From positions 1-12,914 of the forward strand of contig QHXL01000021.1 in the NCBI GenBank assembly GCA_003222935.1: 12,914 nucleotides of DNA, given 5' to 3'. The notes beneath the pieces are model-generated. The model had not been told where the DNA came from, ran no database searches, and saw only the letters and a program-made list of their open reading frames with translations. The stretch is from Acidobacteriota bacterium (lineage in GTDB: Bacteria > Acidobacteriota > Blastocatellia > Pyrinomonadales > Pyrinomonadaceae). Below, piece by piece: positions 1 to 12,914 of the stretch (positions are counted from its first letter, which is position 1; every line of letters starts with the position of its first letter). Position numbers and translations under genes: made by a program.

Positions 1-115
1 AAACCGCCACCACCGAAACCGCCGCCACCGCGACCACCACCGCCCTGTGGACCACCGCCACCGCCACCAGGACCGCCGCCGCCGGGAGCACGACCGGCCA
101 TACCGCCACCCATCA
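1..115. repeat. GGN-codon low-complexity tract (poly-Gly coding)
   Basis: The plus strand shows repeated CCG/CCA/CCT triplets (accgccaccaccg-type), which read on the minus strand as GGN glycine codons. It is part of the Oar-like gene and is prone to slippage and assembly error. Confidence 0.85.
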
Positions 116-434
116 TTGTTTGGCGCTGACCTTCGTTACCTTGACCCTGCGCATTCTGGCCTTGACGATTCTGTGCACTTGCGTTGCCCTCAGAACCGAA
201 GCTCCAGGTTTTGCTGACTCGCAGATTGACACTGGTTGAGCCCGGACCTTCAGCATAGTTGCGTGAGATCATCACGTCACCGGGAGCTAAGCTCACTTTG
301 AAATTGCCGTATGGCGTGCACCTGAAATTTGTGGTGTCGCTGCAATTGAAGGCGCCTGTCGCTAACGACGGACGTTCGGTGTTGAGTGTGTCGCCGTTGA
401 TGTCTCTTCCAAGAGTTATGTTGAATGGTCGACC
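1..434 (-). CDS. C-terminal fragment of the Oar-like protein with Gly-rich tail, runs off the left edge
   Basis: From 434 the frame reads GRPFNITLGRDINGDTLNTE, a conserved late-barrel motif, then NLRVSKTWSFGSEG. A Gln/Asn-rich stretch follows (bases ~120-190), and then a long Gly-rich run (bases 1-115) with blocks such as PGGGGPGGGGGG and GGGRGGGGGFGGGG. Poly-Gly insertions near the C-terminal strands are common in Acidobacteriota members of this family, but I cannot say what they do. The frame is open at base 1, so the final strands are missing from the window. Relative to the middle fragment the frame has shifted by the equivalent of one lost base. Confidence 0.7.
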
Positions 435-1384
435 GTGATGAAGGGGTTCAAACTAATACCCCAGAAGGTCCGGATATTACCCGTCATTACGAAACGATGC
501 CTGATGTCTGATGACGCTCGACCGTATTCGGTACTGAAGTCATAAGGATTGGCAGGAAGCGTTCCTGAACCGTCCGTATCGCTACTCGCCTTTGCCAACA
601 CATAGTAGGCGTTGAACGAAATGTTGCGTGTCATGCGACTGTTGAAGTTAACGATGAACTGGTTCTGGTTATAACGACCACTCGAGTCGTACTCGTAAAT
701 GTTACACGTCGTCGAGGGGTTGATGCTGACTGGGATAAAGTCAGCGCAATTCAATGGACGAACTCCGCTGCCCGGCACACCCTGGATGAAGGTTCCGGGT
801 AATGGAGCATTCAACGGTCGCGTGCGCAACATGTGAAGCGTACGAATATTGATATAGCTGGTCGCTACCGTCATGTTGCGTGGTAACTGACGCTCGACGC
901 TAAACACAGACTGCAAAGTGTACGGAGCCTGCAGATTATTCTCGAGCTGATATACCGATCCGGGCACCGAGAACTGCACCAGTGTTGCCGGAGTTGGGAT
1001 GATCGGGAAAAAGTCAGGATTCTGTACAGTGAACTGTTGTTGATTGACACCATTCAAGCGATTGGCTTGCAGCGTCAAGCTTTCGTTTACGCGTTCGTAG
1101 AAAACACCATAGCCTCCGCGTATAACGGTCTTCGACTGTTGTCCGCCGGGCGACCATGCAAATCCGATTCGCGGAGCCACATTCAAATTGCTATTGATGT
1201 TGCTCTGGTTCTCGTAGCGAAGACCCATGCTGAGCGTAAAGTTTGGACGTAATTTCCAATCGTCTTGAGCGAAGCCGCCGAAGTCCCACTGGCTAACTTT
1301 GGTTTCCGGATTTCCAGACGAGAGACGGAACTGACTGGCGCCACCGCCAAGTAATCTGATTTCGGCTGCACTCTTACCTTGCGT
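416..1384 (-). CDS. Middle fragment of the Oar-like protein (central beta-barrel)
   Basis: Reading from about 1384 the frame gives QGKSAAEIRLLGGG, then FAQDDWKLRPNFTLSMGLRYE, then PRIGFAWSP and VIRGGYGVFYERV. These are the standard alternating barrel-strand motifs of the family, so the piece continues the N-terminal fragment after skipping one base. An ATG exists at 1228, but it falls inside a barrel strand and has no credible ribosome-binding site; it is not expected to be a real start. Four Cys codons are scattered in loops. The frame ends at a TAA (418-416) just after SLNPFITVDHST, where the family continues into a strand typically reading GxPFNITxGRDxNGD; that strand is present in the next frame. 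Confidence 0.75.
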   Translation of the reverse strand, partial: TQGKSAAEIRLLGGGASQFRLSSGNPETKVSQWDFGGFAQDDWKLRPNFTLSMGLRYENQSNINSNLNVAPRIGFAWSPGGQQSKTVIRGGYGVFYERVNESLTLQANRLNGVNQQQFTVQNPDFFPIIPTPATLVQFSVPGSVYQLENNLQAPYTLQSVFSVERQLPRNMTVATSYINIRTLHMLRTRPLNAPLPGTFIQGVPGSGVRPLNCADFIPVSINPSTTCNIYEYDSSGRYNQNQFIVNFNSRMTRNISFNAYYVLAKASSDTDGSGTLPANPYDFSTEYGRASSDIRHRFVMTGNIRTFWGISLNPFITVDHST

Positions 1385-2864
1385 GCGCCAGGAAAACCTG
1401 AGTTCGCCGATAACGTTCGATACTGGTCACGGTCTGCGTACTGCCAGGGATGACGTTGTCGTTAGCATCCAATTGCGGACCAACGCCACCACCGAAAAAC
1501 GTGTAGGTTCCGCCGAAATTCTGTGGCGAGAACTGGTTGATGTGGACCGAGCGTACGCGAGCGCCAACCTTGAAAGAATGCATTGCAACTGCGAACGACG
1601 TGTTGTTCGTCAATTCCCAGTTATTATTGGTGTTCTTTGACTGGCCTACCTGCGAGCCACCACCAGTGAATGCTTCCTGAACCTCCAGGGTCGGAATCGA
1701 GTTATCAGCGTTCTGGCTGCCGGTGCCGTGCTCAAACTGAAAACGAGTTTCGTTCACGATAGTCTTGTTAATGATCGAGGTTTCGGTGAACTGGATGCTG
1801 TGCTCAGTGTTTTCAGAATCGTAAGCACGTGAAGGAAGTGAAAATCCACCGACACCTTGCACGCGAGTATTCTGCGAGTAGCTGTAGCGGCCGACAAGGG
1901 TATTGTTGGCATTGATCGAATAATCCACTCGAGGACTAAAAGAAGTCCGGCGACTCGGAATCGGTGCGGTTTGATTGAAACCGACTATCTTGTTATTAGC
2001 GTCCAGCACCTGGGCGATGATCAACGTCTCGTCGTCGGTGTCGCGCTTGTCGAAGTCAACAAAGAACGACGCCTTCCCCTTGGAGATAGGACCACCAAAA
2101 TTTCCACCGTATTGACGGGTTTGCAGGGGTGGTCGCTTGTCCGTTTTTGAGAACGGATTGCGCGAGTTGAACGATTCGTCGTTGAAGTTGAAAGATGCTG
2201 AACCGCGGAAACGATCGGTTCCGGGGCGAGTCAGGATCTCAATACGACCAAAACCCAGGCGATCATATTCCGCTGAAAATGGATTTGAGTTGATCCTTAT
2301 CTCGCGAATTGAAGCGCGAGGCGGCAGGCGACCGCCAGTGAAGCCGTCAACAAATATTTGCCCACCATTTGGACCAGCTGACGGACCAGCAAGCGCCTGA
2401 AGCGCGGCGGCGAGGTCGTCCGGATCGTCCGGCAGTGCGTCGATATCTTCTCCCTTAAGCACTACCGCACCCGCATTGTTTTCGGGCTCGGTATTCACTG
2501 TGTTGGCGGAAGCATCAATCTCAACCTTCTGTTCTTCGATCGCAACCTTCAAGGTGATCTCGAGTTGCTGTACCTTTGCGGCAGCAACGTCGACTTCCGT
2601 TTGCTCAAAAATGCTAAAACCAGGATTCACCGCGCGAACGGTGTACTTACCAGGCGCTAAACCATTTATCGTGAAGGCGCCGCCGTCGTTTGTAACCACA
2701 GTCTTCTCGACGCCCTTCGCGTCAATTGCGGTCACCGTGACACCCACGATCGCGCCACCTAGTTCGTCAAGGACCTGGCCCTTAAGTGAACCGTTGCGCT
2801 GTTGAGCAACCGCCAAAGCAGCCAAACTCAAACACAGGGCGATTGCTATCAATATTCGTTTCAT
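1374..2864 (-). CDS. N-terminal fragment: signal peptide, carboxypeptidase regulatory-like domain, TonB plug and first barrel strands
   Basis: The fragment begins MKRILIAIALCLSLAALAVA, a clear Sec signal peptide ending AVAQQ. The start at 2864 is preferred over the in-frame ATG at 2879 because GAGGAG lies 7 bases before it. Residues ~25-110 form a CarboxypepD_reg beta-sandwich (GSLKGQVLDELGGAIVGVTV, then GLAPGKYTVRAV). Next comes a plug-like region (VVLKGEDIDALPDDPDDL, IFVDGFTGG, IREIRINSNPFSAEYDR, RIEILTRPGT), then aromatic-rich barrel strands. In this family the protein sits in the outer membrane and may bind large substrates or adhere; its actual substrate is unknown. The frame closes at a TAA right after ERYRRTQVFLAHAR, about one third into the expected barrel, so alone it could not make a full barrel. 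Confidence 0.85.
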   Translation of the reverse strand: MKRILIAIALCLSLAALAVAQQRNGSLKGQVLDELGGAIVGVTVTAIDAKGVEKTVVTNDGGAFTINGLAPGKYTVRAVNPGFSIFEQTEVDVAAAKVQQLEITLKVAIEEQKVEIDASANTVNTEPENNAGAVVLKGEDIDALPDDPDDLAAALQALAGPSAGPNGGQIFVDGFTGGRLPPRASIREIRINSNPFSAEYDRLGFGRIEILTRPGTDRFRGSASFNFNDESFNSRNPFSKTDKRPPLQTRQYGGNFGGPISKGKASFFVDFDKRDTDDETLIIAQVLDANNKIVGFNQTAPIPSRRTSFSPRVDYSINANNTLVGRYSYSQNTRVQGVGGFSLPSRAYDSENTEHSIQFTETSIINKTIVNETRFQFEHGTGSQNADNSIPTLEVQEAFTGGGSQVGQSKNTNNNWELTNNTSFAVAMHSFKVGARVRSVHINQFSPQNFGGTYTFFGGGVGPQLDANDNVIPGSTQTVTSIERYRRTQVFLAHAR

Positions 2865-2955
2865 CTGGAGACTCCTCATTTTTTCCTTTTAGTGCCTGGC
2901 GTACACGCGACAATACTCGCCCTGCTAATGGAGCGGGATTGTACTCAAATGGGGC

Positions 2956-6027: not shown

Positions 6028-7926
6028 TTAGTCAACCTGGTGTTTTTTCAGAAGCTCATTGAAGCGTGGATCATCTCTTAGAGGATCAAGTTGCGCTTCG
6101 TACTTGAGGGTGGCGCTGATAAAACGGTTCGGTCGGATCTCATTCAAATCGTTAAAGGCTTTGTCCTTGTCACCAAGTGCTCCGTAAACAACTCCGTAGT
6201 TGATATGATTTCGCATTCCAGAGGTGTTGATCTTCTCGACTTCGGCCAACATGCGCATACAGTCTTCACGGCGGCCCTCTAACGCATATGCATATGCTTT
6301 CTCCCAGTAAACATAGCGCGGATTCCGGCCGAGCCACTGGTCCAAATTTTCATGCGCTTCCCTGAACATGCGTTTTTGAATATACGCCTCCGACAGATTA
6401 AGACCCGCCGCGTCTTGAGTTGGTTCCAACTCCAGTGCTCGCTTTGAATAGACGATACTTGTATCGAAATCGCGAGCGTGGTAGAGCATTCCCGCCAGTG
6501 CCCCGTTTGTAATCGACGACACCGGATCAAGCTGTTGTGCTCGACGCATATGAACCAACGCCTGGTCTAACTTCAGTTCGTAGTACAGGTAGTAGGCGTA
6601 TCGCAAGTGGGCGACGGCATAGTTCGGATTCAACTCAAGAGCACGCTGAAACTCACGTCCAGCTTCGTCAAAGTTGCGCTCAGCCATTTTCAGGCCAGCT
6701 TTGACGGTGTGTGCCGCTGCCAGGGAGTCGTTCAACTCGAGCGCTTTCGTTACTGATATTTCAGCCCGCTTCAAGGCTTCATCCGGATCAGTGCGACCAT
6801 ACTCATCCTGCATGCTCAGGTAATAACAATCTGCCAGTATTGCCCGCGCTTCAGCGAAGTTTGGATCTATCGCAACCGCTTGTTCGAGGTGTGCAATCGC
6901 CTTTGGCAGGTTCTCCCGGGTTCGTCGATTCCAGAAATACAAACCAGTTATGTAAGGCTCGTAGGCTTCGGTGTTGTCGGTAGAATGAACCGACAGAGCA
7001 TTCTTATCGCTTTGTGTAAGCTGGGGACGCAACGAACCAGCAAGTTGCTCAGACACGGAATCTTGAAGTGTGAAGATGCTGCTGTAGCGCTCATCAAACT
7101 TTCCTGACCAGACAGTCTTGCCATCACTCAGTCTGATTAGTTGTGCTGTTACTCGAACCCACTCGCCATCACGCTGAACAGTTCCATCAAGCACACTTTC
7201 CACATCCAGTTCACGACCAATCGCAACTGGATCCTTGTCGCGTTCGGTATAGCGAAAGATTGAGCTGGTAGGTAAAACAGAAAGCTGATCCAGCCGGCTT
7301 AGCTTGATGATCAAAGCGTCGGCCATTCCCAAGCCCAACAGATCGTTTTCGCTGTTTGTGCCGATTGTCTTGAACGGTAAAACGGCCACCGAACGCGGCA
7401 CAAAACGTTCGCCGTTGTTTCTGAAACGGAACCAGTAAACAACTGACAGCAAAAGTGCGAGAACAACCACTCCAACAATCGCGATCGGGTAGACGTTTCG
7501 GCGGGGAGGAAGCGGAACCGGCGTTTCAAGAGGACTCGACTGCTCTGCTACAGGAGACGCCTCAACCGTTTTTATTGCGTGACCATTTGTCAGCTCATCC
7601 AGTTCGTTGACGACGGCATTAAATCGGTAGCCTCGTTTGGGAATGGTTTCAATGTAGTTATTTTCGCTGTCACCCTCTGCCAGTGCGCGGCGCAACAATG
7701 AGATGTTTTGCGTGAGGCTACTTTCTTCAACGAAGCTGTCGGGCCAGAGGTGCTCCATCAGCTCGTTCTTTTCCAGGATGTGACCGTTGTTTTCAACCAG
7801 GACGAGGAGTGTGTCGAGAACCTTCGGAGTCAGCGCGACCATCTCGCTCCCGCGATACAGGATTCGTTCCGTTAAGTTGAGACGGAAAGGACCAAACTCG
7901 TAGAAGTGGAGAGCGCGTTGGTTCAT
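6028..7926 (-). CDS. Membrane-anchored winged-helix regulator with TolB-like and TPR domains (CadC-like layout)
   Basis: This is a 632-aa one-component regulator type common in Acidobacteriota. Residues ~8-105 form an OmpR/CadC-type winged helix (YEFGPFRLNLTERILYR, ALTPKVLDTLLVLVENNG, then IPKRGYRFNA) with no receiver domain. A Pro-rich linker leads to one transmembrane helix (~148-167, IAIVGVVVLALLLSVVYW). Outside the membrane is a TolB/FlgO-like alpha/beta domain (RSVAVLPFKTIG to ~300). Then come at least five TPR-like repeats (for example AIAHLEQAVAIDPNFAEARA, AGREFQRALELNPNYAVAHL, SIVYSKRALELEPTQDAA). DNA binding inside and a protein-binding TPR solenoid outside suggest signal transfer across the membrane; the ligand and targets are unknown. 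There is no strong ribosome-binding site before the ATG. A 33-bp inverted repeat sits directly upstream. Confidence 0.88.
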   Translation of the reverse strand: MNQRALHFYEFGPFRLNLTERILYRGSEMVALTPKVLDTLLVLVENNGHILEKNELMEHLWPDSFVEESSLTQNISLLRRALAEGDSENNYIETIPKRGYRFNAVVNELDELTNGHAIKTVEASPVAEQSSPLETPVPLPPRRNVYPIAIVGVVVLALLLSVVYWFRFRNNGERFVPRSVAVLPFKTIGTNSENDLLGLGMADALIIKLSRLDQLSVLPTSSIFRYTERDKDPVAIGRELDVESVLDGTVQRDGEWVRVTAQLIRLSDGKTVWSGKFDERYSSIFTLQDSVSEQLAGSLRPQLTQSDKNALSVHSTDNTEAYEPYITGLYFWNRRTRENLPKAIAHLEQAVAIDPNFAEARAILADCYYLSMQDEYGRTDPDEALKRAEISVTKALELNDSLAAAHTVKAGLKMAERNFDEAGREFQRALELNPNYAVAHLRYAYYLYYELKLDQALVHMRRAQQLDPVSSITNGALAGMLYHARDFDTSIVYSKRALELEPTQDAAGLNLSEAYIQKRMFREAHENLDQWLGRNPRYVYWEKAYAYALEGRREDCMRMLAEVEKINTSGMRNHINYGVVYGALGDKDKAFNDLNEIRPNRFISATLKYEAQLDPLRDDPRFNELLKKHQVD

Positions 7927-7940
7927 GGTCGGAAGATCAA

Positions 7941-8063
7941 ATCATTTTCCAGATCTCATTAGACATTTTTCAGTTATCAATTTGATTGGATAAGGGTCTA
8001 CATGGGCTCCGGGCATTCAGTAAATGACATCTGAAAAATGTCAAATGACAAATGGAAAATGAA
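7941..8063. repeat. 33-bp imperfect inverted repeat upstream of the wHTH-TPR regulator
   Basis: Bases 7941-7973 and 8031-8063 match at 28 of 33 positions in inverted orientation, including a perfect 12-bp core (GACATTTTTCAG at 7962-7973 and its complement at 8031-8042). The spacer is 57 bases. The A/T-rich arms carry short ATGACAAATG-type runs. It starts 15 bases upstream of the regulator ATG, so it overlaps the likely promoter and leader. It may be an operator, a leader hairpin or a decayed mobile palindrome; I cannot tell which. Confidence 0.7.
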
Positions 8064-8822: not shown

Positions 8823-9167
8823 ATGCGCATGCAACACCTGAGATCGTTAGATCAAAATCAACTTACTCCCCAGGCTCACACTGATTCCCTTCCTGCTGAC
8901 GGCAAGTTGCTCTATAGCAAACTCGCCAACATTAGCAGTCTTGTTTCTTCTCTAAACGCCGCCGTGGAAGACCTCGAAACGCAAGAGATCACGCCCTTGG
9001 GCGATGAGTTCGACTTCTACAACGAAGTGGAGCGATTTGAAGTCAACTTAATTCGAAGCGCGTTGCGCGTTAGCGGAGGCTCGCAGGTAAGAGCCGCGAG
9101 ACTTCTCAAACTGAACCCCACTACGCTTAACGCAAAAATGAAAGCCCTAAAGTTGTTAGGAAGGTAG
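8823..9167 (+). CDS. Small stand-alone Fis-type helix-turn-helix protein (copy 1)
   Basis: This is a 114-aa protein whose C-terminal half (~65-110) is a Fis-family DNA-binding domain: EVERFEVNLIRSALRVSGG, then QVRAARLLKLNPTTLNAKMK. It is the type found at the C-terminus of sigma-54 activators, but no AAA+ or receiver domain is present. Residues ~25-60 look like a helical, possibly coiled segment (KLANISSLVSSLNAAVEDLE). AGGAAAAA before the ATG gives a moderate ribosome-binding site. It lies 15 bases upstream of a paralogue with the same layout, so the two probably form an operon and could heterodimerise. By analogy with Fis it may bind and bend DNA as a dimer; targets are unknown. Confidence 0.82.
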   Translation: MRMQHLRSLDQNQLTPQAHTDSLPADGKLLYSKLANISSLVSSLNAAVEDLETQEITPLGDEFDFYNEVERFEVNLIRSALRVSGGSQVRAARLLKLNPTTLNAKMKALKLLGR

Positions 9168-9182
9168 ATAGGAACCAAAGTC

Positions 9183-9599
9183 ATGCATAGATATCAACCG
9201 GTAAATAACCTTGCTCGATCGCCCATCGAGCGTTTGAATACGCCGATCACGTCGACTCAAGAACAAGGTTTGCCACCGAACACGTTCTCGCTCAAAGAAC
9301 TCTCGAAGGCGCACCTGAGTTCACCCACGGCCGAGGAAGCGCGTCTCGCGTCGCTAAAGGTCCTGGCAATGACGCTGCTTAGTCAGGTCGAGTCGCTCGA
9401 AAAACAGCTGGATGCAGGCACGGTGCCGGAGTTGAATCTTCAAAACGAAGTTCATCGCTTCGAGGAAGAAATAATTCGCAGCGCACTCAGGAAAACAGGG
9501 GGTCGCCAGCGACGTGCGGCCCGGCTGTTGGGTGTTAAAGTCACCACCTTGAACACAAAGATCAAACGCTACAACATCAACTCGAGTAAACCTGAGTGA
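9183..9599 (+). CDS. Small stand-alone Fis-type helix-turn-helix protein (copy 2)
   Basis: This is a 138-aa paralogue of the preceding gene. The Fis-type domain spans ~88-132: EVHRFEEEIIRSALRKTGG, then QRRAARLLGVKVTTLNTKIK. It shares the pattern E-x-x-RFE-x-x-(L/I)IRSALR and RAARLL with copy 1. Residues ~45-82 form a helical segment (LKVLAMTLLSQVESLEKQLD), and the N-terminal ~40 residues look disordered. A ribosome-binding site (AGGAA, 9170-9174) sits 8 bases before the ATG. The basic, Arg/Gln-rich loop GGRQRRAARLL suggests tight DNA contact. The copies are clearly diverged, so the duplication is not recent. Function beyond DNA binding is unknown. Confidence 0.82.
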   Translation: MHRYQPVNNLARSPIERLNTPITSTQEQGLPPNTFSLKELSKAHLSSPTAEEARLASLKVLAMTLLSQVESLEKQLDAGTVPELNLQNEVHRFEEEIIRSALRKTGGRQRRAARLLGVKVTTLNTKIKRYNINSSKPE

Positions 9600-11544: not shown

Positions 11545-12432
11545 TCACTTAGTTAGCTTATCGATCAACCTTCCTGCCTTCTCATGTAAATCCGGCGTGG
11601 CGCCATAGAAGATCCCTGCCGTCTTCCCTTGCGAGTCGAACACAAACATTCGCGGCACACTTCCAAAAGTTCCAAATGGCGCGATCAACTCGGGTGTCGA
11701 CATTACAAAACTCACCGGCGTTCCCAGCGCTTTTGTTAACTCGCGTACCTGCGCTTCCTCCGACTCAACGGCCACTGCCACCACAACTACTTTCTCAGCG
11801 TTGCGACGTTTTAGCTCACCCAACCAACTCAACGTCGACCTACACGGTGGACACCAGGTGGCCCAAAACTCAACTACCACTGTCTTGCCCGCCAGCAACG
11901 CGAAATCAATCGGACGTCCGTCGAGGTCGCGAACACTCAAGGCCGGTAGCTTAGCGATATCGTCTTCCTCGCCAGTTTTGGTCCTGCCTTCCGCGGCGAG
12001 TTCTTTTTCACCACGCAACAGTTGCTCGATCATTCGGGTGAGGTCGTTTTGAAACTTGTCGTGATTGGATTTTTCTCGCCAGGGAGCGTACTTACCACTA
12101 GGATCGCCCCAACCTCCGAAGTCGCTTGGCGAAGCGATCAAAATGTCGTCAACAAAAACTGCCGGGTATCGTTTCACACCATAACGCTCAGCGAGCTTCG
12201 ACTCGCCCCAGTTCTCACTGACAAACTCAGCACGAGGGCCAAACCCGTGAACGACGTCTTTGATCAGCAAACTTGCCGGATCGGAGAGACTTCAAGTGTA
12301 GGGCCAGCGCACCAGCGTCACAGTTACCTTCCGAGGTTTAGCTGTATCACTTGTTTGCCCCACAACTGCCGGGCTCAAACTCAACAGAACGAAGCAGCAG
12401 CCAATCATTACTGAGCGCCAGTCGAATTTCAT
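11545..12432 (-). CDS. Candidate selenoprotein: secreted protein with Sec-containing thioredoxin-like domain fused to a TlpA-like domain
   Basis: Reading codon 47 (TGA, 12294-12292) as selenocysteine gives a 295-aa protein. The start ATG at 12432 has AAGGAG upstream and overlaps the preceding stop as ATGA. Residues 1-26 are a signal peptide. Domain 1 (~34-140) has a thioredoxin-fold plan: strand VTVTLVRWPYT, then U47-S-L-S at the catalytic position, helix, ENWGESKLAERYGVKRYP with cis-Pro90, then AVFVDD. Domain 2 (~160-295) is TlpA/ResA-like, with W193-C194-P-P-C197 and a cis-Pro in FGSVP (Pro261). The likely role is periplasmic thiol-disulfide or peroxide chemistry; the substrate is unknown. 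A caller using TTG 12270 would lose the signal peptide and active site. The alternative is a nonsense mutation of a Cys codon. The final stop is also TGA. Confidence 0.72.
12256..12290 (-). promoter_or_regulatory. SECIS-like hairpin directly after the in-frame TGA
   Basis: On the minus strand, GUCU (12290-12287) pairs with AGAC (12259-12256). GAUC (12282-12279) pairs with GAUC (12265-12262). GGCA (12277-12274) pairs with UGCU (12269-12266, one G-U). C12278 is bulged and the tetraloop is AGUU. The loop starts 19 bases after UGA with G as its second base. Bacterial SECIS elements are described as an apical loop about 16-37 bases after UGA with a G in the first two loop positions, so this fits. 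The fold was drawn by hand. Confidence 0.5.
12292..12294 (-). other. In-frame TGA codon, proposed selenocysteine 47
   Basis: It lies between WPYT and SLSD, one base change from either Cys codon, at the end of the first beta-strand of a thioredoxin fold where the redox Cys normally sits. The frame is open on both sides, from ATG 12432 to the TGA at 11547-11545. Confidence 0.65.
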
Positions 12433-12914
12433 TTTGTCTCCTTCAGGTAATCGGAGTAGCTTGGCAGTACGATATTCAAAATCACAGCCGCGCGTTTTAT
12501 TTGAGCCGCAGTGGGTTCTGTTTTGCTCGTTGGATTTAGCGAAGTCTCAGCCATCTCCCAAAATAAAGCCGCGATACTCTGGTCCTTTTTATCTGCTTTC
12601 AACTGTCTTCCTGTTTCCGCACTTCGCTCTCGCAGATGCGCGACGTCTTCGTTGTCGGCTGTAGTAATTAGTAAGCCAAAAAAGAGCCGCGTCTCGAGAT
12701 ACTTGAGCAGTGCACCCTCAAACATCTTCGCGCGGTTAAGTTCACCGGCAACTTTCAGGTTCGAATTCAGCCGGTTGAAATTGGCCTGTTGAGTGCTGAC
12801 GTCCGCCGATTTGTATGTTTTGAGAATCGCTGTTTCTAGTTTTGTTAACTCCGGCACCGGGGATCGAAACGTTAGCGGCGTCTTGTTCTGAGGAAAGTTT
12901 AGACCACGCAAAAA
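12429..12914 (-). CDS. Protein of unknown function, partial (C-terminal ~160 residues), coupled to the selenoprotein candidate
   Basis: The frame is open to the right edge, so the start is outside the window. I do not recognise the family. The visible part is nearly all helical with heptad-like stretches (TKLETAILKTYKSADV, LKVAGELNRAKMFEGALLKY, AAQIKRAAVILNIVLPSYSD), has no Cys, and contains two Thr/Asn-rich turns. It may be a small periplasmic helical-bundle protein, but no signal peptide is visible because the N-terminus is missing. Its stop TGA shares bases with the next gene's ATG (ATGA), and its last codons carry the AAGGAG ribosome-binding site for that gene. The two are therefore translationally coupled and probably act together. 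Confidence 0.75.
   Translation of the reverse strand, partial: FLRGLNFPQNKTPLTFRSPVPELTKLETAILKTYKSADVSTQQANFNRLNSNLKVAGELNRAKMFEGALLKYLETRLFFGLLITTADNEDVAHLRERSAETGRQLKADKKDQSIAALFWEMAETSLNPTSKTEPTAAQIKRAAVILNIVLPSYSDYLKETK

Follow-up and report, generated by a model that had tools for sequence, protein, structure and literature searches.

A TGA-interrupted gene from Acidobacteriota that probably encodes a selenoprotein with a thioredoxin-like domain and a TlpA-like domain

We analyzed a 12,914-nt stretch of DNA from an Acidobacteriota bacterium (the window; all coordinates refer to its full length), which comes from an assembly in 695 contigs that we label G000. On the minus strand, a frame runs from an ATG at 12432 to a stop codon at 11547–11545, and its sole interruption is a TGA at codon 47 (12294–12292), with 46 codons before the TGA and 248 codons between it and the stop. 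The ATG (12432–12430) lies within an ATGA (12432–12429) that also contains the stop codon of the upstream open reading frame (ORF). We looked for an open frame on the plus strand of 11545–12432 and found none. The initial annotation, made from the sequence, had proposed that this gene encodes a selenoprotein. It described the start codon, the good ribosome-binding site, the overlap, and the single in-frame TGA correctly (without naming the strand), and the loop VKRYPAVFVDD and the motif WCPPC were found where it had placed them. Judging from the comparisons described below, codon 47 is almost certainly read as selenocysteine (Sec). The features of the locus are listed in Table 1.

Table 1. Features of the TGA-interrupted gene and of the ORF upstream of it.
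Feature	Positions	Strand	Basis
Selenoprotein gene, 295 residues if codon 47 (TGA) encodes Sec	11545–12432	-	Sequence, homologs
Ribosome-binding site AAGGAG, 5 bases ahead of the ATG	12438–12443	-	Sequence
Probable export signal peptide, residues 1–26 (charged start, then hydrophobic stretch)	12355–12432	-	By eye from the sequence
TGA codon 47, proposed selenocysteine	12292–12294	-	TGA in 27 of 27 distinct loci
Bacterial SECIS-like hairpin; apical loop AGUU at 12273–12270, 18 nt past the TGA	12264–12279	-	Conservation; model in PMC13188914 (as excerpted)
Domain 1, thioredoxin-like Sec domain, residues 36–139; Pro codon of YP (cis-Pro-like) loop at 12165–12163	12016–12327	-	Profile searches, model
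Domain 2, TlpA/ResA-like with CPPC, residues 156–295; Cys codons at 11853–11851 and 11844–11842	11548–11967	-	Profile matches, model
Helical partner protein, C-terminal part, running off the contig end; fused to domain 1 in most homologs	12429–12914	-	ORF, homologs

When contigs were scanned with the downstream 241 residues, 545 relatives were found and the best 80 were kept. Eleven of these 80 matched from residue 1 and were examined, and the same codon is TGA in every one of them; matches of the remaining 69 begin no earlier than residue 65, mainly covering the TlpA domain, and these were left out. Among 396 genomes drawn evenly from the phylum, 16 contain domain 1, with exactly one TGA inside it in each. 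Domain 1 was also found, again with one TGA each time, in three of 294 genomes from the Planctomycetota, the phylum of genome G009. Once duplicates were removed (L121, L126, L128, and L146), there were 27 distinct loci from Acidobacteriota and Planctomycetota. The equivalent of codon 47 is a TGA in all 27, and residues are conserved on both flanks. We consider it confirmed that the TGA-interrupted frame is real, far beyond chance. The ratio of nonsynonymous to synonymous change (pN/pS) was 0.14 for the 11 codons before the TGA and 0.19 for the five codons after it (24 loci, 276 pairs), which indicates purifying selection on the coding sequence. Because codons +1 to +5 lie ahead of any in-frame ATG, GTG, or TTG, the stretch after the TGA evolves as translated protein. 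The family is minor and patchy among Sec-using members: genome G208, a relative from the same genus, has selA and no match to the family.

The initial annotation had tied its reading to the presence of the Sec machinery. The source genome carries selA, selD, a Sec tRNA gene (tRNA-Sec, anticodon tca), and selB in two pieces. Its selD (L137, G000:C640) contains a TGA in frame where Sec usually lies and is, by its sequence, probably a selenoprotein itself. Across the first 12 genomes, selB, selA, and selD scored over the cut-off in 11, 10, and 11 genomes, respectively, and ARAGORN identified tRNA-Sec in 11. (We preferred ARAGORN for this tRNA because the Rfam tRNA-Sec model matched all 14 controls, five of them over its cut-off.) In the survey of 396 genomes, selA was over the cut-off in 250 and in 16 of the 16 family carriers. 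In two more carriers, G409 and G609, selA scored over the cut-off and ARAGORN identified tRNA-Sec.

Shortly after the TGA lies a hairpin that resembles the bacterial selenocysteine insertion sequence (SECIS); neither this hairpin nor the partner domain upstream was mentioned in the initial annotation. The bSECIS model, as given in the portion of PMC13188914 available to us, has a G in the first two loop positions, a loop of 3–9 nt, an upper stem of 4–16 bp, a distance of 16–37 nt from the UGA, and an energy of -7.5 or below. The hairpin of this family has a loop of AGUU or GGUC (with G at the second or at both of the first two loop positions), a stem of 5–6 bp, and its loop 18 nt from the UGA, and the energy of the 36 nt after the TGA is within the -7.5 limit in 24 of 25 loci (-9.0 in the window). 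The frozen bases read CC(A/G)GCA, then (A)GU(U) or (G)GU(C), then UGCUG(G); in the window, the outermost pair of the family hairpin is replaced by an unpaired C-A. Synonymous identity reaches 1.0 at codons +6, +7, and +9, whereas 42 other codons average 0.48 and do not exceed 0.81. The outer bases of the loop are A-U in 18 of the 27 loci and G-C in the other nine, never mixed, and the tree requires two or more double changes of this kind. These frozen synonymous codons and coupled loop bases are the strongest evidence for the hairpin. Furthermore, 97.9% of the cells pair (20 of 25 sequences), and none of 500 shuffles reached that value or the covariation score. Rfam RF00031 gave no match anywhere, which is uninformative about the hairpin; we take RF00031 to be the eukaryotic type of SECIS.

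Domain 1 had no match above the cut-off in Pfam or NCBIfam, and this includes the Pfam thioredoxin families. Its predicted fold is nevertheless that of thioredoxin, with the YP loop in the place of the cis-Pro loop and with Sec just ahead of the first helix, which agrees with where the initial annotation had put the TGA (VIA-align also gave fold matches). A forced global alignment of the two domains puts the U on the first Cys of WCPPC. The profile comparison of the domains is weak (probability 27%), and the best PDB profile match, 3tco (E 0.011), instead puts the U on the second Cys. From the global alignment, matches such as 7c3f (E 0.062), and the ranges in the models, it is supported that Sec would lie roughly where thioredoxin has its nucleophilic Cys, and that Ser follows at +3. 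The motif is U-x-x-S in 24 of the 25 loci counted and U-x-x-C in L001 only, so the CXXC or UXXC of a thioredoxin active site is missing from 24 of them. The initial annotation's remark that there is no resolving Cys at +3 holds for these 24 loci and fails for L001; where that Cys is absent, another thiol is needed.

Domain 2 is of the redoxin type with a CXXC motif, and both of its cysteines are invariant in 24 loci. If L132, L145, and L147 are included, a TlpA domain with two active-site cysteines lies downstream in frame in all 27 loci with the TGA. Upstream, we compared a context set of 27 loci from 26 genomes (L146 repeats L009, and L132 is outside this set). In all 27, domain 1 is preceded by a helical domain of about 300 residues, which either belongs to the same chain or is encoded by the adjacent gene; the window and L140–L144 show the two-gene arrangement. 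Because the contig ends, the window has only the C-terminal part of it. From its sequence, this partner domain (12429–12914 on the minus strand of the window, L001–L011, and L140–L147) is probably helical and exported. By sequence, it has no clear relative in Pfam, NCBIfam, or PDB, and the best PDB match is a MIT domain (E 0.036). In L129, the Sec ORF itself begins with MMQRRLVLKG, which differs from the signal in the window and which we take to resemble a Tat export signal.

We also compared 241 database proteins at the Sec site, using listings of matches (proteins only, their DNA not being seen). Of these listed homologs, 232 begin after the site and five align across it, with Cys in P0037 and P0063, Ser in P0025, Trp in P0032, and Arg in P0184. 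The other four are ambiguous: three extend upstream, though their alignments begin further down, and the fourth, P0126, starts at the site. The initial annotation had expected Cys or TGA here in homologs, which is what all 27 loci and two of the proteins have and three of the proteins do not; taken alone, this comparison is mixed. One database search counted 480 homologs, and among the 120 listed, 115 are 224–251 residues long. Residues 25–105 of P0037, used as a query, found only two proteins. P0063 combines the Cys form of domain 1 with an upstream helical domain and a start that looks, by eye, like that of a lipoprotein; it has no TlpA domain.

With Sec machinery in the source genome and the TGA in 27 of 27 loci, the selenoprotein reading of the initial annotation is supported. 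There is strong support for two points: Sec-decoding genomes read through a conserved UGA that a SECIS-type hairpin follows, and the chain contains two thioredoxin folds. Overall, a selenoprotein with SECIS-guided Sec, presumably exported, is highly probable. The protein would be exported. It is well supported that SelB and Sec-tRNA(UCA) would read the UGA at codon 47 under the guidance of the hairpin, whose loop is 18 nt downstream. In the mechanism that we favor, the selenolate would then attack an oxidized substrate (a peroxide, sulfoxide, or disulfide), the TlpA-like domain of that chain would reduce the oxidized Sec through its CPPC, in an intramolecular relay of the kind that the initial annotation had suggested, and a membrane protein of the DsbD/CcdA type would recharge the TlpA-like domain. 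A DsbD-type protein is present. The helical partner may bind the substrate or anchor the complex. We hold the chemical part of this mechanism (attack by Sec, recycling by CPPC, and recharging by DsbD/CcdA) tentatively, as nearly an even call. More broadly, the helical, Sec-thioredoxin, and TlpA domains could form one relay enzyme, an envelope redox system dedicated to Sec in Acidobacteriota and Planctomycetota, with Sec recycled by the CPPC in the same chain, but we view this as possible rather than probable.

Several observations weigh against this interpretation. The hairpin of L123, at -5.4 kcal/mol, misses the -7.5 limit (one of 25 loci). Synonymous shuffles reach free energies as low as that of the hairpin (mean z -0.79), so stability alone does not discriminate. 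Four of the seven hairpin pairs are invariant and only one has double changes; the five pairs that RNAalifold itself chose show no double change. On two of five measures, the shuffles equal the hairpin (455 of 500 for pairs changed on both sides and 500 of 500 for further pair types), and related sequences can beat such shuffles without any structure. Just two of the five database proteins across the Sec site have Cys. The models are less certain in the Sec loop, with block means of pLDDT of 69 and 73. The selB of the source genome (L138, G000:C693, 24–1899) is split by a frameshift into two ORFs that overlap near 1066–1148, which is either an assembly error or a mutation. Not all of the first 12 genomes have every component over the cut-off, and the best tRNA match in G011 is a tRNA-Ser. 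Besides the helical partner, no conserved neighboring gene points to a function in the 27 loci, a test limited by the length of the flanks, which in some loci is roughly 1 kb or less and at most 6 kb. Finally, the relay, the substrate, and the electron donor are matters that we infer.

Another explanation, which we consider a real possibility that falls somewhat short of even, is that the protein is a selenoprotein whose TlpA-like domain does not serve the Sec, so that domain 1 functions by itself as a peroxidase, chaperone, or metal-binding unit and depends on an external reductant. P0063, in which a Cys form of domain 1 and the helical domain occur without TlpA, fits such a separation, and the pTM of the two-domain model, 0.76, leaves room for other arrangements of the domains. 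However, the TlpA domain with both active-site cysteines accompanies domain 1 in the same frame in every locus with the TGA, and the need for a thiol from elsewhere in 24 of 25 loci also favors a link between the two.

It is very improbable that the TGA is a true stop, with a separate TlpA-family protein made from an internal start, as annotated in databases. The 232 listed homologs that begin after the site agree with a stop, as do three homologs that are publicly named “TlpA disulfide reductase” and whose 239–242 amino acids are as many as the frame encodes after the TGA. But codons +1 to +5, which precede any possible in-frame start, keep their amino acids while changing synonymously. The TTG at +8 is CTG in nine of the 27 loci. 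Domain 1 would, according to the model, be left without its first strand, and the SECIS-like hairpin is located just there. Decoding of the UGA as another amino acid, such as Trp, by a near-cognate or suppressor tRNA is less probable still. The Trp in P0032 and the Ser and Arg in other homologs speak for it, but the Trp may be a TGG or a table-4 translation, as the DNA was not seen, and the carriers have Sec machinery, with the tca-anticodon tRNA typed as tRNA-Sec, as well as the hairpin and Cys in two homologs. A sequencing error or pseudogene mutation as the origin of the TGA is scarcely credible: the assembly is in 695 contigs and has other frameshifted genes (selB and the pieces of an outer-membrane gene in the window), but with the TGA conserved across all the distinct loci, a read error is very unlikely, and purifying selection acts on the coding sequence.

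Around the gene, the groups common to at least three loci are the two halves of the Sec protein with the partner, overlapping other reading frames, and one more group, from four loci, that includes the transcription regulator of the window (6031–7941). We scanned 10 proteins near the gene, and the families they matched are diverse and give no clue to function. Elsewhere in the window, a CarboxypepD_reg/outer-membrane beta-barrel protein at 3–2879 (minus strand) is in pieces in different frames, with frameshifts due to assembly error or decay, and two adjacent small proteins of the Fis type (HTH_8) lie in tandem at 8823–9599 (plus strand).

Thioredoxin-fold selenoproteins are known; what appears to be new, from the sequences, is a selenoprotein family that has a domain plan of its own and hardly any Cys forms. 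Judged by names, models, and motifs, it is not among the 119 families in Table 1 of the 2026 catalogue (PMC13188914, as excerpted), nor is it mentioned in the portions of PMC13188914, PMC12013277, PMC1794560, and PMC7539508 that we covered. The authors of deep-Sep note, in the part of PMC12013277 available to us, that their own method relies on Cys/Sec pairs and may filter out such selenoproteins. Since Cys homologs are rare here, methods of this kind may filter out this protein, and the near absence of Cys forms would, if true, explain why surveys based on Cys/Sec pairs missed the family. The finding would extend the predicted selenoproteins by one family, points to many database entries being too short, and offers a testable case of a Sec site and a CPPC domain in one chain.

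Domain 2 scores far below the NCBIfam cut-offs for the TlpA/ResA/DsbE thiol-disulfide oxidoreductases (for ResA, 54 of 170 bits), and unlike those proteins it is preceded by a Sec domain in the same chain. The NCBIfam model WAxxUGC_long (NF041054) matches weakly, at 35.7 bits of a cut-off of 300, in a segment that starts only at residue 143 and lies clear of the Sec. The remaining comparisons are with Table 1 of PMC13188914, as excerpted. The entry “peroxiredoxin-like UxxS, MDX2448127.1” was considered by its description only. Proteins related to SelW have CxxU, whereas here the motif is UxxS and the best matches of domain 1 are thioredoxins. Like the protein described here, the selenoprotein thioredoxins and the UGC or UxxC selenoproteins of the TlpA/redoxin type have a thioredoxin fold and a Sec UGA followed by a SECIS-type hairpin. 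The motifs set them apart: going by the table, those proteins have Sec in UGC or UxxC, whereas here the TlpA domain keeps both cysteines and the Sec would lie in a second, thioredoxin-like domain that no family model covers, in U-x-x-S.
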